A stretch of 64,000 bases of DNA from contig DYEX01000158.1 of the NCBI GenBank assembly GCA_020725525.1, positions 62,001 through 126,000 of the forward strand, given 5' to 3'. The stretch's first letter is position 1. Every line of letters starts with the position of its first letter. The notes under the pieces were generated by a model, which was not told the DNA's origin, made no database searches, and worked only from the letters and a program-made list of their open reading frames with translations. A program made the position numbers and the translations under genes. The stretch comes from Desulfovirgula sp. (GTDB lineage: Bacteria > Bacillota > Desulfotomaculia > Desulfotomaculales > Desulfovirgulaceae). Shown here piece by piece: positions 14,498-54,846 of this stretch.

Positions 14498-15790
14498 ATG
14501 CAGGCCGAATTAATATTCACCGGTACTGAGCTGCTTTTAGGAGAGGTACTGAATACCCATGCCCAATATCTGAGCCAGCAAATGGCGGCCCATGGGATTG
14601 AGGTTATCCTGCATACCACCGTGGGTGATAACTGGGACCGTTTGGCCGAGGTTCTAAGGTTTGCCCTGGAAAGGGCGGATCTGATCATTACCACCGGTGG
14701 TCTCGGTCCCACCACCGATGATTTAACCAAAGATACGGTAGCCAGGGTACTGGGAGTACCCATGGTACTCGACGATCCGACGCTGCAGCGGCTCAGGGAG
14801 TTCATGGTCCGGCAAGGGATGCCCATGCCCGAGAGTATGGTCAGACAGGCTTATTTCCCTGCCGGTGCCATAATTTTACCCAACCCTGTGGGCACTGCCC
14901 CTGGTGCCCTGCTGGAACACCGGGGCAAGGTACTCATCCTTCTTCCTGGACCACCGCGGGAACTAAAGGCCATGTTTGAGGAATCGGTGGCTCCCTACCT
15001 GGCCTCCCTGGGTAACCGGGGGATGGTCACCCGCATCAGGTTACTTAAGGTAACCGGCATTTCAGAAACGGCAGTGCAGGAACTTATTGGGGATCTGGGG
15101 AGGCAGGGTAACCCCGGCATAGCCTATCTGGCCAAGCCCGGGGAAGTGCACGTGCGCATTAGTGCCCGGGCCGACGATGGTGTTGCCGCCGAGCGGATGG
15201 TGAACGGGTTACTGGAGAAGGTGCGGGAACGGTTGGCCGGCTACATATTTGGTACGGATGACGATGTTCTGGAAGAGGTGGTGGGACAGCTGCTGGTTCG
15301 AAAAGGCGTGACCTGCGCCCTGGCTGAATCCTGTACCGGTGGATTGACTGCCGCCCGGTTGACCTCCATACCCGGCAGTTCCCAGTATTTTTTAGGCAGT
15401 ATTGTGGCTTATGATAACCGGGTTAAGGAAAAGGTCCTGGGTGTCCCGGCGGCCACTCTGCAGGCCTACGGTGCGGTAAGCCAGCAGACTGCCGTGGCTA
15501 TGGCTGAAGGAGTGAGAACCCTTACCGGAGCCCATTTGGGGGTGTCCATTACGGGTATTGCCGGGCCGGGCGGGGGCACCCCGGTCAAACCGGTTGGGTT
15601 GACTTATATTGCCCTGGCTGCCCCCGATGGTACTTGCTGCCGGGAATTTCACTTTCCCGGCCATCGTCAGGCGGTGAGGCAGGGGGCCGCCAACGCCGCC
15701 CTGAACATGATCCGCCTTTATTTGCTCGCTCAGTTGCTTAGCCCAGGGCATTTAGAAGGGCCATGGAGGCCACGCCTGCCAGCAGGGTGA
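14498..15790 (+). CDS. cinA: CinA-like protein (nicotinamide-nucleotide amidase / pyrophosphatase)
   Basis: A 430-residue cytoplasmic protein. The N-terminal COG1058/MoCF-like domain (about 1-170) begins 'AELIFTGTELLLGEV' with 'TTGGLGPTTDD' near 67-77. The C-terminal PncC/CinA domain has 'ALAESCTGGLTAARLTSIPG' near residues 275-294, including the active-site serine of the nicotinamide mononucleotide deamidase. ATG 14498 stands behind GGCAAGGAAG. It directly precedes recA in the Bacillus cluster; here the divergent-facing azlCD pair has been set in between. Its last 53 bases overlap the 3' end of azlD on the other strand. Confidence 0.93.
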   Translation: MQAELIFTGTELLLGEVLNTHAQYLSQQMAAHGIEVILHTTVGDNWDRLAEVLRFALERADLIITTGGLGPTTDDLTKDTVARVLGVPMVLDDPTLQRLREFMVRQGMPMPESMVRQAYFPAGAIILPNPVGTAPGALLEHRGKVLILLPGPPRELKAMFEESVAPYLASLGNRGMVTRIRLLKVTGISETAVQELIGDLGRQGNPGIAYLAKPGEVHVRISARADDGVAAERMVNGLLEKVRERLAGYIFGTDDDVLEEVVGQLLVRKGVTCALAESCTGGLTAARLTSIPGSSQYFLGSIVAYDNRVKEKVLGVPAATLQAYGAVSQQTAVAMAEGVRTLTGAHLGVSITGIAGPGGGTPVKPVGLTYIALAAPDGTCCREFHFPGHRQAVRQGAANAALNMIRLYLLAQLLSPGHLEGPWRPRLPAG

Positions 15791-16058
15791 AAAGCAGGCT
15801 TCTGGTTTTGACGGCCACCAGAAAGGTGGGAATGGCGGCCAGAAGGTTTTTATTATCCAGCGTTAATGCCGGTTCCCCCCCAACCAGAAAAACCTCCGGC
15901 GTAATCAGGGCCGCCATTACTGCTACCGGTACGTAACCAAGCCATCTGGCCCCAACTGCTGGTATCTTGATCCGGCTTAAAAGTAACAGCGGGGTCACCC
16001 GGAACAGATAATTTAACGCTGCGATACCCAGAATTATAATCAAGATTGTTTTTTCCAT
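15738..16058 (-). CDS. azlD: AzlD-family branched-chain amino acid exporter small subunit
   Basis: A 106-residue hydrophobic protein with about four spans, of the size and pattern of AzlD ('RVTPLLLLSRIKIP', 'PVAVMAALITPEVF'). With AzlC it exports branched-chain amino acids or analogues. The start ATG (16058) lies inside the end of azlC, a 19-base overlap, so translation is coupled. Its 3' end overlaps the end of cinA on the opposite strand by 53 bases; no terminator is seen between the two convergent genes. A longer upstream frame lacks a ribosome site and runs within azlC. Confidence 0.9.
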   Translation of the reverse strand: MEKTILIIILGIAALNYLFRVTPLLLLSRIKIPAVGARWLGYVPVAVMAALITPEVFLVGGEPALTLDNKNLLAAIPTFLVAVKTRSLLFTLLAGVASMALLNALG

Positions 16059-16726
16059 TTTTCCACTAACACTCCCACAGTAGCGGCCAGGACAGTGGCC
16101 ACAATTATGTTCCACCCGCTGCCGATCATGCAGGTCACCACCACCGATAGCAGTCCAGCCAGACAGGCTACCACTATAGTGATGTTGTTTTTCAACTGTA
16201 AGATTAACAGGCTGATAAACATGGCCGTCAGGGCAAAGTTAAGCCCCCAGCGCTGGGTATCCCCCAGCAGTGTACCCAGCATCCCTCCTGCTACACTGCC
16301 TCCCACCCACGCCAGGTGGGCGGTGAGGAACAACCCGCTGAGGTACCACTGATTGACGGGCTTTTCACGCATACGGTTTATACCCACGGCATAGGTCTCA
16401 TCAGTGAGACCATGGGCCAGGAAAGAGAGCAGTGTGGCGTTAAAACGGGAAAGATGGGGTGCCAGGGAAGCACTTAAGAGTATTAAGCGGGAATTGACCA
16501 GCATAATGGCGGCAATGATGCTGGCCGGGGCCGCCCCTGCTCCCAGCATGCCCACGGCAATAAATTGAGCGGAGCCGGAATAGATGAGCAAAGACATGGC
16601 CAGCACCTGCCATAAGGAAAGATGACTTGCGCGGGCCAGTACACCGAAGGCCATGGCCAGAGGGAAATACCCCAGCACAATGGGCAGTGCTTCTTTCACT
16701 CCCAGTTGAAACTCTTTTCTGTTCAT
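16040..16726 (-). CDS. azlC: AzlC-family branched-chain amino acid exporter large subunit
   Basis: A 228-residue polytopic membrane protein of the AzlC family. Motifs '[18 protein letters not shown]' near the N-terminus, 'SGSAQFIA' near 55 and '[10 protein letters not shown]' near 110 are typical. I placed the start at ATG 16726 (MNRKEF), with AAAGGAGA about 11 bases upstream on the minus strand. It is divergent from recA, with 121 bases between the start codons. AzlCD is not part of the usual cinA-recA neighbourhood and appears inserted there. Confidence 0.92.
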
Positions 16727-16847
16727 ACCTGACTGTTCTCTCCTTTGCGCGCGATCAATCATAATCATACTCCATCAGGTCTCCTGTGACCAGGTCTTTT
16801 TTACGGGGTCTTGTGGGGGCACTTCTTTTAAAGGTGGTGTTTTTGTA

Positions 16848-17879
16848 ATGTCCAATGAAAGACTAAAGGTACTGGAGTCAACTTTGAGCCGTATTGAGCA
16901 GCAGTTCGGTAAAGGGGCCATCATGAGACTGGGCGAGACCGCCAGGCTTAATGTGGAGGTAATTCCCACCGGTGCCCTGTCACTGGATATTGCCCTGGGT
17001 GTGGGGGGTGTCCCCCGGGGCCGGGTGGTAGAAATATTTGGTCCGGAGTCGTCGGGCAAGACCACGGTTGCCCTCCACATCATTGCCGAAGCCCAAAAAG
17101 CGGGCGGAATTGCTGCTTTCATTGATGCCGAACATGCTCTGGATCCGGTCTACGCCAAAAACCTGGGGGTAGATATTGAAAATCTCCTGGTATCCCAGCC
17201 CGATACCGGCGAGCAGGCCCTGGAGATCTGTGAAGCGCTGGTACGGAGCGGGGCCATAGACGTGGTGGTGATCGACTCGGTGGCAGCCCTGGTGCCAAAG
17301 GCGGAAATTGAAGGGGAAATGGGGGAACTTCAGGTGGGTTTGCAGGCCCGCCTGATGTCCCAGGCCCTGCGCAAGCTGACCGGTGCCATCAGTAAATCCC
17401 GCACCACGGCCATTTTTATTAACCAGTTGCGGGAAAAGGTGGGCGTGATGTTTGGCAACCCGGAAACCACGCCCGGCGGCAGGGCACTCAAGTTTTACGC
17501 CTCGGTGCGCCTGGAAGTGCGTAAAATGGAAGCATTGAAGCAGGGGGCGGACATCATTGGCTGCCGTACCCGGGTGAAAGTGGTCAAAAACAAACTGGCT
17601 CCGCCTTTCAGACAGGCAGATTTTGACATTATGTACGGTACAGGTATTTCCAGGGAAGGGACTCTACTGGATCTGGCCACAGAAATGAAAATTGTCACCA
17701 AAAGTGGTACCTGGTATTCTTACGGAGAGGAACGGCTGGGACAGGGTCGGGAGAATGTGAAGGAATATTTACGGGAACATCCTGAGGTGGCCCGGGAAAT
17801 TGAACAAAAAATTCGCCAGCAACTGAATATGGGGGGCATCAAAATACCTTCATCAATCGATGAAAGCACAACTGAATAA
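16848..17879 (+). CDS. recA: Recombinase RecA
   Basis: A 343-residue DNA strand-exchange ATPase. Walker A is GPESSGKT near residue 65-72; Walker B is '[11 protein letters not shown]' near 140; the DNA-binding loops fall around '[20 protein letters not shown]' and '[20 protein letters not shown]'. The C-terminus is short and only weakly acidic. ATG 16848 follows AAAGGTGG at a slightly long spacing. No LexA/DinR-type box (CGAAC-N4-GTTCG) is visible in the 120 bases upstream, so SOS control is not evident. No recX follows. Confidence 0.98.
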
Positions 17880-17943: not shown

Positions 17944-17972
17944 TTGACATTCTTTAATAAAATATATAGAAT
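17944..17972 (+). promoter_or_regulatory. Near-perfect housekeeping promoter of the recA-rny intergenic RNA
   Basis: TTGACA (17944-17949), 17-base spacer, TAGAAT (17967-17972). It lies 65 bases after the recA stop and 282 bases before rny. The first long frame is only at 18254 and a terminator stands at 18142-18167, so this promoter most likely serves the short structured RNA that follows. Confidence 0.85.
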
Positions 17973-17979
17973 TATCGTT

Positions 17980-18167
17980 GGGAGAAAATAGAATTGGTTA
18001 CTACTGGTACGGGTTTAAAATAGATACAACCTTCCCCGTGGGGAAGGATAATATCTGGAAATCAACCGCTTAAAAAAAGGGGTTTTAGAACCCTTTTCTG
18101 CCCGTGTCCGCAAATCAAAAGGTAGTACCGATTCTTTTTCTACCGAGTGTAACTCGGTCTTTTTTTT
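17980..18167 (+). ncRNA. Candidate structured small RNA between recA and rny (6S-like layout)
   Basis: A predicted transcript of about 188 bases runs from the promoter at 17944 to the terminator at 18142. Its two ends pair in a long interrupted helix: AGAAAA (17983-17988) with TTTTCT (18136-18141); GAATTGGT (17991-17998) with ACCGATTC (18127-18134); ACTACT (18000-18005) with GGTAGT (18121-18126); and GG-ACGGG (18006-18013) with CCCGT-CC (18101-18109). That is about 27 pairs with few mismatches and an 11-base bulge at 18110-18120. Inside are a hairpin at 18022-18056 (core CCTTCCCC/GGGGAAGG) and another at 18077-18097 (GGGTT/AACCC flanked by A and T runs). Length, own promoter and near full-length rod recall 6S RNA, but I see no decisive 6S signature. 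A nine-codon TTG frame at its start is probably meaningless. Confidence 0.7.
18142..18167 (+). terminator. Rho-independent terminator of the intergenic RNA
   Basis: Stem ACCGAGT (18142-18148) / ACTCGGT (18152-18158), three-base loop, then C and eight T residues. The stem starts at the base after the closing helix of the RNA ends, so the two helices could stack. Confidence 0.85.
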
Positions 18168-18173
18168 GTATAA

Positions 18174-18225
18174 CCCTGGAGAATCCCAACCGGCCCACCC
18201 CGCCTCAGACTGGGAATATCCAGGG
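18174..18225 (+). other. Leader hairpin ahead of rny
   Basis: CCCTGGA (18174-18180) pairs with TCCAGGG (18219-18225), and inside it TCCCA (18184-18188) pairs with TGGGA (18211-18215), around a C-rich loop. There is no T-run. It ends 13 bases before the rny ribosome site, so it could affect mRNA stability or translation of rny. Confidence 0.45.
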
Positions 18226-18253
18226 AGATAAGCCATTAAGGAGGTGAGATAAT

Positions 18254-19792
18254 TTGCAGGCCATGACCGTAGCCATAGCAGTAATCGCAGCAGTGGTTGC
18301 ATTTGCCATTGGGTATCTGGTTCGCAAATACCTGGTAGAGGCCAAAATTGCTTCGGCAGAAGCTGAAGCCAGGAAGATCATAGAAGAGGCCGAGAAGGCT
18401 GCAGAAGCCAAAAAAAGGGAAGCTATCCTTGAGGCTAAAGAGGAAGTCTTGCGGTTACGTAATGAGATGGAGAGGGAGAACAAGGAGCGCCGTACCGAAC
18501 TGCAGCGTTTGGAACGGCGGTTGATGCAAAAGGAAGAGACCCTCGACCGCAAAATCGAGTCCATTGAACGCAAAGAGGAAGCCCTTAACCGCAAGGAGGC
18601 TGAGATTGAAAATCTAAAAGCGCGCTTGGACGAGATTTATCAACAACAGGTTAGCGAACTGGAACGGATCTCGGGGCTGACTTCAGAAGAAGCACGCCAG
18701 CAGCTACTTGCCGACATTGAAAAGGAAGTGCAACATGAGGCAGCCCTGATGATCAAGGATGTGGAAAATAAGGCCCGGGAAGAGGCGGAGAGGCGTGCCC
18801 GGGAGATTATTTCCCTGGCCATCCAGCGGTGTGCCGCAGATCACGTCACCGAAACCACGGTGGCGGTTATTCCCCTGCCCAGCGATGAAATGAAGGGGAG
18901 AATCATTGGCCGGGAAGGGCGCAATATTCGCGCTTTTGAAACTCTAACCGGGATCGACTTAATTATTGACGACACCCCGGAGGCGGTGATCTTATCCGGG
19001 TTTGATCCCATCCGGCGCGAAATTGCTCGTATTGCCCTGGAAAAGCTCATTGTTGACGGACGCATTCACCCCGCCCGGATTGAAGAAATGGTGGAGAAGG
19101 CCCGCAAGGAAGTGGAAGCACAAATTCGTGAGGCCGGGGAACAGGCCACCTTCGAAACCGGAGTGCACGGTTTGCATCCCGAGCTGGTTACCCTTTTGGG
19201 CCGTTTAAAGTTCCGCACCAGTTACGGGCAAAACGTTCTCAAGCACTCCATTGAAGTGGCTCATCTGGCCGGACTGATGGCCGCTGAGCTGGGTGTGGAT
19301 GTGCAGACGGCCAAGCGGGCCGGTTTGCTGCACGACATTGGCAAGGCAGTGGATCATGAGGTGGAGGGCCCCCACGTATCCATTGGCGTGGAATTGGCCA
19401 AAAAGTATCGCGAACATCCCGAGGTGATCAATGCCATTGCCGCCCACCACGGGGATCAGGAAGCTCAGACCATTACGGCGGTACTGGTACAGGCGGCCGA
19501 TGCCATATCAGCGGCCCGGCCGGGAGCGCGGCGGGAAACCTTAGAAGCCTATATCAAGCGGTTACAAAAACTGGAAGAGATCGCCAGTTCCTTTGACGGT
19601 GTAGAAAAATCCTATGCCATCCAGGCCGGACGGGAGATCAGGATTATGGTTAAGCCGGATAAGGTTGACGACCTGGGAGCTGTCCGCCTGGGGCGGGAAA
19701 TTGCCAAGAAAATCGAAAAAGAACTGGATTACCCGGGCCAGATTAAGGTGACTATTATACGGGAAACCCGGGTGGTGGATTACGCAAAATGA
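18254..19792 (+). CDS. rny: Ribonuclease Y
   Basis: A 512-residue membrane-anchored endoribonuclease that starts mRNA decay. One N-terminal span (residues about 3-24) is followed by a long charged coiled coil (about 30-190), a KH domain with '[15 protein letters not shown]' near 216-230, and an HD domain with '[13 protein letters not shown]' and '[13 protein letters not shown]' near 335-375. The start is TTG 18254, placed about seven bases after AAGGAGGTGA; an in-frame ATG three codons later is an alternative. It is followed by a small gene, ymdB and spoVS as in Bacillus (rny-ymdB-spoVS). Confidence 0.96.
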
Positions 19793-25640: not shown

Positions 25641-25700
25641 CTTCTAAAAGGAGGATTTTATTCTCAAGTAGCGAAATAACCCAGAAAAGTGATTTTTCTT

Positions 25701-25857
25701 AGCCTGCAGGTGCCCCAAGGGGGAGAATAGGGAATCAGGTGAAACTCCTGAGCGGTCTCCGCCACTGTAACCGGGAAGCAGCCTTACAAAGCCACCGCCA
25801 GGGAAGGCGTAGGGCAAGCGATGATCCGGGAGCCAGGATACCTGCCTGCGGGTTGCC
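25701..25857 (+). promoter_or_regulatory. Cobalamin (B12) riboswitch
   Basis: The conserved core is plainly present: GGGAATCAGGTGAAACTCCT from 25730, AGCGGTC, the B12 box GCCACTG (25761-25767), TAACCGGGAAGC, GGGAAGGC and GATGATCCGGGAGCCAGGAT. The outer helix is GCAGGT (25706-25711) with ACCTGC (25840-25845). A CCCCTT/AAGGGG hairpin (25864-25883) follows and may be part of the expression platform. It heads the cobalamin operon beginning at 25973 and would turn it down when adenosylcobalamin is plentiful. Confidence 0.95.
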
Positions 25858-25972
25858 TTTTGACCCCTTCGTGAGTAAAGGGGCATGGCTTCTTTTCGGG
25901 GCTAGGGATTGGCCTGGCACAAGTTTCCCCGGTCTATCGAAGGCTGGGGTTTTTGTTTTAAGGGGTGTTGTT

Positions 25973-52082: not shown

Positions 52083-52392
52083 TAAATTTAACATCCCTAA
52101 AGTCGATGAAGGGGAAAAGTAGGCCGGACACAGTTCTCCCAGGGAGAAGGCGCCGGCGACTGGAAGCGCCTTTAGAACATGACCGGTTGAAGTTCTCCCC
52201 GGAGATGCAGGCTGAAACCCGCTGAAGCGGGCAAGTAGGCTGGGCCGTGGTCTTCCCACGTTACCGGGAAGGGGGTATCGGAAGAATATTCCCGTACCCT
52301 GTTGAGGTGGGCCGTTTTTACGGTCAAGTAGGGTGGTAACGCGGAAAGCAGTATGCTTCTCGTCCCTAAAGGTGCGAGAAGCTTTTATTTTT
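52083..52392 (+). promoter_or_regulatory. T-box riboswitch, complete (probably Phe)
   Basis: Stem I runs from about 52104 to 52205: GGGGA (52111-52115) pairs with TCCCC, and the specifier loop has AGTA (52118-52121) opposite GAA (52189-52191), as in T-box loop E motifs. The triplet after GAA-G is TTC (52193-52195), a phenylalanine codon. The T-box sequence AGGGTGGTAACGCGG (52330-52344) has A where GGTACCGCG is usual. A terminator follows: GCTTCTCG (52355-52362) / CGAGAAGC (52375-52382) then TTTTATTTTT. Uncharged tRNA-Phe would favour read-through into the second module. Confidence 0.85.
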
Positions 52393-52548: not shown

Positions 52549-53562
52549 ATGGTAGTGGTCATGGATGGGCAGGCTCCTGCCGAACAGGTGGAGGCGGTGA
52601 TCAAGAGGCTCCAGGAAAATGGTTTTACCGCCCACCCCATTTACGGGGTCAGACGGATCGTCATCGGCGCCGTGGGCGACCGGCAGGTGGTCAATTCCCT
52701 GGGGCTGGAAACCATGCCCGGGGTGGAGAGGGTGGTACCCATTATGAAACCCTACAAACTGGTCAGCCGGGAGGCCAGGGAAGAAAACACCGTGGTGCGG
52801 GTGGGTCATGTGACGGTAGGAGGCAACCATCTGGTGGTCATGGCCGGGCCCTGTGCCGTGGAAAGCCGGGAACAGTTGCTTGCGGCGGCTCACACGGTGA
52901 AGCGGGCTGGTGCCGCTATTTTGCGCGGCGGGGCCTTTAAACCCCGTACTTCACCCTATAGCTTTCAAGGTTTGGAGGAAAAGGGGTTAAAATTACTGGC
53001 GGAAGCGGCCCGCCAGACCGGCCTGGCCACGGTTACCGAAGTGGTGGATGAGTACAGCCTGGAGCTGGCCGTGCAGTATGTGGATATGCTCCAGGTGGGG
53101 GCGAGGAACATGCAGAATTTCCGCCTTCTGCAGATGGTCGGCCGCTCAGGCAAGCCGGTACTGCTCAAACGCGGCCTGTCGGCTACGGTGGAAGAGTGGC
53201 TGATGGCGGCGGAGTACATCATGTCCGAAGGTAACGGGCAGATAGTCCTTTGCGAGCGGGGTATCCGCACTTTTGAGCATTCCACCCGCAACACCCTGGA
53301 CTTGAGTGCCGTACCGCTGGTGAAGTCTTTAAGCCACCTGCCGGTGATTGTGGATCCGAGCCATGCCACGGGGGACCGCCGGCTGGTGGGCCCCATGGCC
53401 AGAGCAGCGGTGGCTGCCGGAGCCGATGGTTTGCTGATTGAAGTGCACCCTGAGCCCACGCAGGCCCTTTGTGACGGTCCCCAGTCCCTGACTCCGGCGC
53501 AGTTTGCTTCCCTGATGGAGGAATTGCGGGCGGTAGCTGCTGCCGTGGGGCGGGCGGCTTGA
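52549..53562 (+). CDS. aroF: 3-deoxy-7-phosphoheptulonate synthase (DAHP synthase)
   Basis: A 337-residue enzyme of the AroF/type I-beta group, condensing phosphoenolpyruvate and erythrose 4-phosphate at the start of aromatic amino acid synthesis. The N-terminal 70 residues form the ferredoxin-like regulatory domain ('MVVVMDGQAPAEQVEAVIKR'). The barrel has 'VMAGPCAVES' (about 100-109), 'RGGAFKPRTSPYSFQG' (about 126-141), 'KRGLSATVEEW' and 'VIVDPSHATGDRRLV' (about 265-279). ATG 52549 follows TGGAGGG. It is controlled by the T-box leader and is cotranscribed with pheA 18 bases downstream. Confidence 0.95.
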   Translation: MVVVMDGQAPAEQVEAVIKRLQENGFTAHPIYGVRRIVIGAVGDRQVVNSLGLETMPGVERVVPIMKPYKLVSREAREENTVVRVGHVTVGGNHLVVMAGPCAVESREQLLAAAHTVKRAGAAILRGGAFKPRTSPYSFQGLEEKGLKLLAEAARQTGLATVTEVVDEYSLELAVQYVDMLQVGARNMQNFRLLQMVGRSGKPVLLKRGLSATVEEWLMAAEYIMSEGNGQIVLCERGIRTFEHSTRNTLDLSAVPLVKSLSHLPVIVDPSHATGDRRLVGPMARAAVAAGADGLLIEVHPEPTQALCDGPQSLTPAQFASLMEELRAVAAAVGRAA

Positions 53563-53580: not shown

Positions 53581-54846
53581 ATGGATAAAAAAATTGGTTA
53601 CCTTGGCCCTTGTGGTACCTTTTCGGAACTGGCGGTGCAGCAATACCTGGCCCGGCAGCCGGCAGGGGATGTCCAAATGGTAGCCCTGCCGTCCATATAC
53701 GAGGTGCTTGCGGCGGTGGTGCGGGGAGAAGTGACCGAAGCGGTGGTGCCGCTGGAGAACTCCAGTGAAGGGGCGGTTAACCAGACTCAGGACCTGCTGG
53801 CCCATACTTTCCCGGAGTTACGCATTAAAGGGGAGATCATCCTGCCGGTGGTCCACTGCCTTATGGCTCCGCCCGGAGTACCGCTAAAGACGATTGAAAG
53901 GGTGCTTTCACATCCCCATGCCCTGGCCCAGTGCCGGGAGTTCATCTCCAGACACCTGCCCGGAGCTCAGGTGGTGGAAACCGCCAGCACAGCCGCTGCC
54001 GTGCACCTGGTGGCTTCCACCGGTGCTCCCTGGGCAGCCATTGGCCCCGTAACGGCTGCCCGGGAGTACGGGCTGGAAGTGCTGGTGGAAAAAGTCAATG
54101 ATTGCCCCGGCAACGCCACCCGGTTTATTGTGGTCGGGTGGGAGGACGGCGAGTGCGGGCCGGCCTGTAAAACATCTCTGATTATTTCCGTGGCCCACCG
54201 CCCGGGAGCCCTGTATGAGGTGCTGGGGGAGTTTGCCGCAAGGGGGATCAACCTGACGCGTATAGAGTCCCGCCCCTCCAGACGCCGTTTGGGGGAGTAC
54301 CTGTTTTTCATTGATCTGGTGGGCCACCGGCATGATAAACAGGTACAGGAAGCATTAGAAGCGGTGGCTTCCCGGGCAGAGCTGAGGGTGCTCGGTTCCT
54401 ATCCCGCGGACTTGAGCGGGCCTGAGTACACTGCCGACCCGGTCGATAAAGTAAAGCGGCCTGCTGGCGGCATCCCCAGCAGCTCAACGGTGGAGGCCGG
54501 GTTCACCGGGCAGGCGGTATCCCCATCCCCGGTACAATGGGAGGAAATTGAAGGGCTGCGGGAGGCCATCGATGAGGTGGATGAACAAGTGGTGGAAATG
54601 CTGGCCCGGCGTAACGCCCTGGCGGTCCGGATAGGGAAATTAAAGGCAGGCGTTTGCCCGGTGCGCGATCCCCACCGGGAATCCCGGGTGCTGGCCCGGG
54701 TGCGCCGCCTGGCCCAGCTAAAAGGGGTGGATCCGGCGATGGTGGAAAAAGTATATCGTTTGATCATCCAGCATGCCGTACGCCTGCAAAGGGAACAGCA
54801 GGGAGGCGCCCGGGCCGCCTGCACCCCGCCTGCCGGTGACTTTTAA
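53581..54846 (+). CDS. pheA: Prephenate dehydratase with ACT and C-terminal chorismate mutase domain
   Basis: A 421-residue protein. Residues 1-190 are prephenate dehydratase ('GYLGPCGTFSELAVQQYL', 'VPLENSSEGAVNQTQDLL' near 57-74, and the 'NATRFIVVG' motif near 178-186). Residues about 198-278 are an ACT domain with 'RPGALYEVLGEFAARGINLT', the phenylalanine-sensing part. After a linker, residues about 321-410 are an AroQ-type chorismate mutase ('LREAIDEVDEQVVEMLARRN', then 'GKLKAG' and 'RDPHRESRV'). E. coli PheA has the order CM-PDT-ACT; here the mutase is last. ATG 53581 follows AAAGGAGC. Together with aroF it would run chorismate to phenylpyruvate. Confidence 0.94.
   Translation: MDKKIGYLGPCGTFSELAVQQYLARQPAGDVQMVALPSIYEVLAAVVRGEVTEAVVPLENSSEGAVNQTQDLLAHTFPELRIKGEIILPVVHCLMAPPGVPLKTIERVLSHPHALAQCREFISRHLPGAQVVETASTAAAVHLVASTGAPWAAIGPVTAAREYGLEVLVEKVNDCPGNATRFIVVGWEDGECGPACKTSLIISVAHRPGALYEVLGEFAARGINLTRIESRPSRRRLGEYLFFIDLVGHRHDKQVQEALEAVASRAELRVLGSYPADLSGPEYTADPVDKVKRPAGGIPSSSTVEAGFTGQAVSPSPVQWEEIEGLREAIDEVDEQVVEMLARRNALAVRIGKLKAGVCPVRDPHRESRVLARVRRLAQLKGVDPAMVEKVYRLIIQHAVRLQREQQGGARAACTPPAGDF

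Follow-up and report, generated by a model that had tools for sequence, protein, structure and literature searches.

RNase Y initiates much of the mRNA decay in many Bacillota. The B. subtilis pbuE element is a terminator-type riboswitch whose closing helix overlaps its terminator; the E. coli rne leader, to our knowledge, has no terminator. The control of RNase Y level that we found in the literature is that of B. subtilis and works by mRNA cleavage, with RNase Y autoregulating through a 164-nt rny leader and lowering its own mRNA by cuts in the early coding region and in that leader, there chiefly within the first 50 nt (PMC10303841). Our literature search, conducted largely outside subscription journals, found no paper on the rny-leader element described here, which lies between recA and rny in Desulfovirgula. 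It shares with the B. subtilis rny 5′ UTR, a precedent for RNase Y self-control, a sigma-A promoter and a structured rny leader, whereas the published model for that leader, which we compared by description, is one of cleavage and decay with no intrinsic terminator (PMC10303841). Like the E. coli rne 5′ UTR, it is a conserved structured leader before the gene of a major mRNA-decay endonuclease, there serving feedback (PMC10303841 and general knowledge), although the sequences are unrelated and the enzyme, RNase E, is a different one. As in terminator-type attenuators and riboswitches, the closing helix has a 3′ strand that lies against the 5′ arm of a terminator right before the regulated gene and can share bases with it; unlike them, the element has no large conserved ligand-binding core, its apical part being variable or missing, and the bases at the very start of the transcript take part in the overlap. 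We propose that the element is the 5′ leader of the rny messenger, acting as a transcription attenuator (probability roughly 0.68). Attenuation as the function is what we infer, at about that same strength, and the element probably sets the amount of RNase Y, the cell's main RNA-degrading enzyme.

In the window (the whole 64,000-nucleotide stretch of DNA analysed), the locus is laid out as follows:

16848..17879, + strand: recA, the upstream neighbour and not an obligate partner (TIGR02012, 571.9 bits)
17944..17972, + strand: promoter of sigma-A type, TTGACA-N17-TAGAAT, with TTGACA at 17944-17949 and TAGAAT at 17967-17972 (sequence)
17980..18167, + strand: leader RNA in its terminated form, ~188 nt (fold z −4.03, homologues, covariation)
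17980..17995, + strand: near-invariant 5′ end, GGGAGAAAAUAGAAUU (homologue comparison; pairing prediction for the first two G)
17983..18014, + strand: 5′ strand of the closing helix P1 (17983-17988, 17990-17998, 18000-18004) and its inward extension (fold, pair counts)
18015..18098, + strand: variable apical part, with two hairpins in this species (fold, comparison with relatives)
18099..18141, + strand: 3′ strand of the closing helix, with an asymmetric bulge at ~18108-18120 and P1 proper at 18122-18141 (fold, covariation)
18142..18167, + strand: intrinsic terminator, stem ACCGAG/CUCGGU plus U8, its 5′ arm overlapping the predicted P1 extension (fold, invariant stem core)
18168..18248, + strand: spacer and rny ribosome-binding site AAGGAGGTGAG (18238-18248) (spacer lengths in relatives, promoter scan)
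18254..19792, + strand: rny, for RNase Y, with a TTG start, the proposed regulated gene (TIGR03319, 804.8 bits against a cut-off of 454)

The promoter that a sequence-only reading of this DNA had placed between recA and rny is present, with a 17-base spacer between its two hexamers. The invariant portion of the leader begins at GGGAG (17980), which is probably +1 or +2 of the transcript. The terminator hairpin ACCGAG-UGUAA-CUCGGU occupies 18142-18158 and is followed by a C and then by the U8 run (18160-18167), and the functional unit reaches as far as the rny ribosome-binding site (18238-18248). That reading had also seen no protein frame here, and we agree: no + strand ORF of at least 60 aa fits the leader. 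A shorter ORF within it was dropped by eye because its start codon is not kept among families, the TTG of some being TTA or TTT elsewhere. Between cinA and recA, on the − strand, lie two azlC/azlD-like ORFs (branched-chain amino acid export; window 15738-16768).

Positions 17970-18175 fold at −64.6 kcal/mol, compared with −47.3 ± 4.3 for dinucleotide shuffles (z −4.03), and an equally good fold arose in 1 of 200 such shuffles. The predicted layout consists of a long closing helix, two internal hairpins and a separate terminator hairpin, bearing out the earlier description of a strongly structured RNA of ~188 nt with paired ends and a terminator. The two apical hairpins of that description are predicted in this species, yet they fall in the least conserved part of the RNA.

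Sequence comparison indicates that the structure is under selection. The closing helix can be followed in raw sequence from GGUUACUAC/GUAGUACC in the Desulfovirgula window to AGAUACUAC/GUAGUAUC in Pelotomaculum-type genomes, UUGAUAUCUGG/CCAGAUAUC in Desulforamulus and GGCAUCA/UGAUGCC in L084. Across 72 distinct sequences, standard pairs fill 88.6% of the proposed-pair cells, against at most 57.7% when the partners are slid, and both-sided changes occur in 7 of the 8 pairs of the inner P1 helix. The covariation score over the same sequences is 0.215, against 0.125 ± 0.005 after shuffling and at most 0.055 after sliding, in an alignment that was fitted to the structure and so favours such scores; the helix changes are nonetheless visible in raw sequence. 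The long closing helix thus covaries among relatives with the same gene order, an outcome that the sequence-only reading had named as support. RNAalifold on a plain MAFFT alignment recovered the terminator stem alone, because the helix register differs between families, a problem solved by a structure-guided covariance model.

All 70 of the aligned sequences share the stem core CCGAG/CUCGG of the terminator, save for an A-U to G-U change at one pair in seven, an invariance that is unusual for a terminator; the hairpin with this stem occurs once in this genome. The sole clear compensated change of the terminator hairpin that we saw within the order is in L221 and L223, where another stem with both arms altered, ACCGUUGCU UAAG AGCACGGU, stands just 5′ of rny. 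Three loci of one family (L140, L142 and L144) carry an extra hairpin at the 5′ end, GUGGAA...UUCCAC, which seems to compete with P1 and is a possible alternative switch.

A blastn search recovered the element from 84 of 113 genomes of the order, with most matches falling at either end of the RNA. Based on 39 sequences, a covariance model with rough E-values matches 96 of the 113 genomes of the class as well as genomes in other families of the phylum, with Moorella and Thermincola among the holders. Outside the order, where sampling covered groups other than Clostridia and Bacilli (in the GTDB sense), 17 of the 18 matches that we fetched sit between recA and rny and repeat the arrangement promoter, leader, terminator, ribosome-binding site; the covariance-model match L143 was set aside as chance. 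Scanning named genomes for the promoter followed by GGGAGAAANTAG returned 68 stretches, 64 of which are this locus, in holders including Desulfofundulus, Desulforamulus, Pelotomaculum, Desulfoscipio, Moorella and Thermincola; the pattern matches L187, L192, L215 and L216 were discarded as chance. These comparisons indicate that the element is conserved over a broad bacterial group, and the earlier suggestion of a lineage-specific small RNA does not hold for something that spans the order and extends to other families of the phylum. Of 30 checked genomes seemingly without the element, six (G001, G022, G068, G072, G074 and G110) have no rny in the assembly and are therefore no counter-examples; at 18 of the remaining 24 rny loci, all unmatched by the model, a terminator stands just 5′ of rny, mostly of the CCGAG/CUCGG type by eye. 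At most of these unmatched loci the leader has diverged but includes a terminator.

Within the genus, identity is 94% for the promoter, 99% for the 5′ strand, 87% for the 3′ strand and 90% for the terminator, compared with 59-62% for flanking intergenic DNA and 65% for the apical part. The apical part differs strongly in length among relatives and is almost missing in the shortest forms. Five loci (L134, L135 and L137, listed as the 97-nt form, and L226 and L231) have little between promoter and rny except a hairpin and the CCGAG/CUCGG terminator, and five others (L022, L030, L044, L065 and L070) have leaders of ~340-400 nt through apical insertions, both conserved ends being intact.

The element is tied to rny throughout. 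In all 83 loci examined, rny lies directly 3′ of it, and recA or recX is upstream in most genomes; in L199, L217 and L219, where no recA is found within more than 4 kb upstream, the RNA still stands before rny. In relatives, 3-186 nt (median 33) separate the end of the terminator from the rny ribosome-binding site, with at most 45 nt in 74 of 82, and gaps of that size are too short for a promoter and a leader. Promoter-like pairs in this gap score no better than in shuffled sequence, whereas 5′ of the terminator a pair matching 11 of 12 positions is found in 72 of 73 distinct regions, and one matching 10 of 12 in the last. Given a gap that is short and shows no promoter signal, rny should be reached by read-through of the terminator and in no other way, although read-through from recA might also feed it. 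The locus therefore has, by sequence, the arrangement of an attenuator, with promoter, leader and terminator right before a gene and no promoter between, and its linkage to the gene is conserved (83 of 83 loci, 17 of 18 outside the order, and the loci lacking recA). Of the free-standing small RNA that the sequence-only reading described, a structured, unannotated RNA with its own promoter survives; its independence does not, since in most genomes there is neither room nor a promoter 3′ of the terminator, and the element stays with rny even where recA is gone.

Folding alone suggests how such an attenuator might switch. Transcription would begin at the strong sigma-A promoter, near GGGAG (17980), and most polymerases would probably halt at the terminator (18142-18167), setting the ~188-nt RNA free, and the rest would continue into rny and yield its mRNA. 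While the leader is being made, P1 would form and zip toward the 5′ end, and until the 3′ arm of the terminator has been made, the transcript's two leading G would hold the CC of the terminator's 5′ arm (18143-18144). P1 and the 5′ end would thus compete with the terminator hairpin, and a factor that stabilised P1, or that freed or removed the 5′ end, would shift read-through. When leaders were folded as far as the terminator loop with GGGAG as the start, the arm CC paired with the first nucleotides at P > 0.5 in 59 of 68. With six upstream bases added, which may not be transcribed, the rest of the arm paired 1.88 bases, against 1.24 for random 6-mers. The leader's own sequence reaches −64.6 kcal/mol with the terminator and −59.1 for the form folded before the 3′ arm, so that the finished leader favours the terminator and the competition can only be kinetic. 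Such competition would account for the lack of variation at the 5′ end and in the terminator stem, but bases that never change are no proof of pairing, and the two G:C pairs of the 5′ end, being invariant, lend it no covariation support. In Thermincola-type leaders the pairing of 5′ end and arm is weaker (P 0.0-0.4), and therefore the switch may not be general; the shortest leaders have little beyond a helix and the terminator, and therefore a sensor domain is not universal. A slippage switch of the pyrG type, driven by poly-G, was considered because transcripts may start with GGG, and was rejected because the terminator arm CCGAG has no pyrimidine run of the kind required.

Were the leader to attenuate, the most likely sensor would be RNase Y itself in feedback on its own synthesis, a speculative guess that we hold as possible, with the odds somewhat against it. 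The RNA favoured by RNase Y is AU-rich and has little structure, with G/A spanning the cleavage site and U at −2/−3 (PMC11780869), and by sequence the invariant AAAAUAGAAUU resembles such a site. Speculatively, a cut there would take away the terminator's competitor, the 5′ end. Another, improbable, alternative is direct contact between the rny leader and RNA polymerase, as with antitermination RNAs like phage HK022 put RNA; the leader's near-invariant 5′ end and its terminator stem would be the sites of contact, and terminator read-through would report polymerase supply. The alternative was raised because in B. subtilis rny mRNA is ~64-fold enriched on RNA polymerase (PMC11077062) and loss of rny selects duplications of, and mutations in, RNA polymerase genes (PMC8266666); if true, it would couple mRNA synthesis to mRNA decay. 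Attenuation itself, if confirmed, would make the promoter, leader and terminator before rny a second layer of control, at the level of transcription, for an enzyme that sets mRNA lifetimes. Conservation of the element extends over a large anaerobic branch; Rfam 15 has no entry for it, and it is present in the culturable Moorella, Desulforamulus and Desulfofundulus.

Several other explanations share part of this evidence. The hairpin and U-run could work post-transcriptionally, on a leader cleaved by RNase Y that blocks or admits RNase J, with little termination; B. subtilis RNase Y does cut its own leader (PMC10303841) and the UAG/AAUU of the invariant 5′ end resembles the RNase Y preference (PMC11780869), but a stem followed by U6-U8 has the textbook form of an intrinsic terminator, one that a cleavage site alone has no need of and that nearly all loci keep, and across most of the order base pairing is predicted for the 5′ segment. 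We regard this as unlikely. It is rather unlikely, too, that the locus holds the gene of a trans-acting small RNA beside rny, with the ~188-nt RNA as the product and rny fed by leaky read-through. A strong promoter and a strong terminator would suit such a gene, and the near-invariant 5′ segment could be its seed; yet in the loci examined, those without recA included, the RNA is never away from rny, which would otherwise be left with no promoter, and the apical part is unconstrained. That the element lies downstream of recA or recX in most genomes would also fit a mere terminator of the recA unit, preceded by a chance promoter-like site and fold, but promoter and 5′ RNA segment are conserved across the order, the structure covaries and the element persists where recA is absent, which makes this very improbable.

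We consider it most improbable that the RNA is of the 6S type, imitating an open promoter and sequestering RNA polymerase, as the sequence-only reading had raised as one possibility from its length, rod-like fold and own promoter. RF00013 gave no match at the locus at E ≤ 10 and none in 20 homologues at E ≤ 2, and the genome has a bona fide 6S gene on another contig (RF00013, 111.7 bits; G000:C56:24875-25058). The likeness in length and rod shape is further set against strict linkage to rny and against homologues as short as ~97 nt. Nor did another known family account for the region: cmscan of the window against Rfam 15 placed no family above its gathering threshold at the recA-rny gap, and relaxed thresholds gave nothing credible either there (the best sub-threshold match being rimP, 23.4 bits against 47) or in 20 homologues. 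The same scan of the window matched one cobalamin riboswitch and one T-box, both elsewhere. The cobalamin riboswitch (RF00174, 117 bits; 25691-25863, + strand) is followed by cobU-/cobQ-like genes in an ordinary arrangement. The T-box (RF00230, 97.9 bits; 52097-52370, + strand) precedes a DAHP synthase-like ORF (52549-53562) and, further downstream, a prephenate dehydratase/chorismate mutase-like ORF (53581-54846), and given these aromatic-pathway-like ORFs it probably senses an aromatic aminoacyl-tRNA.
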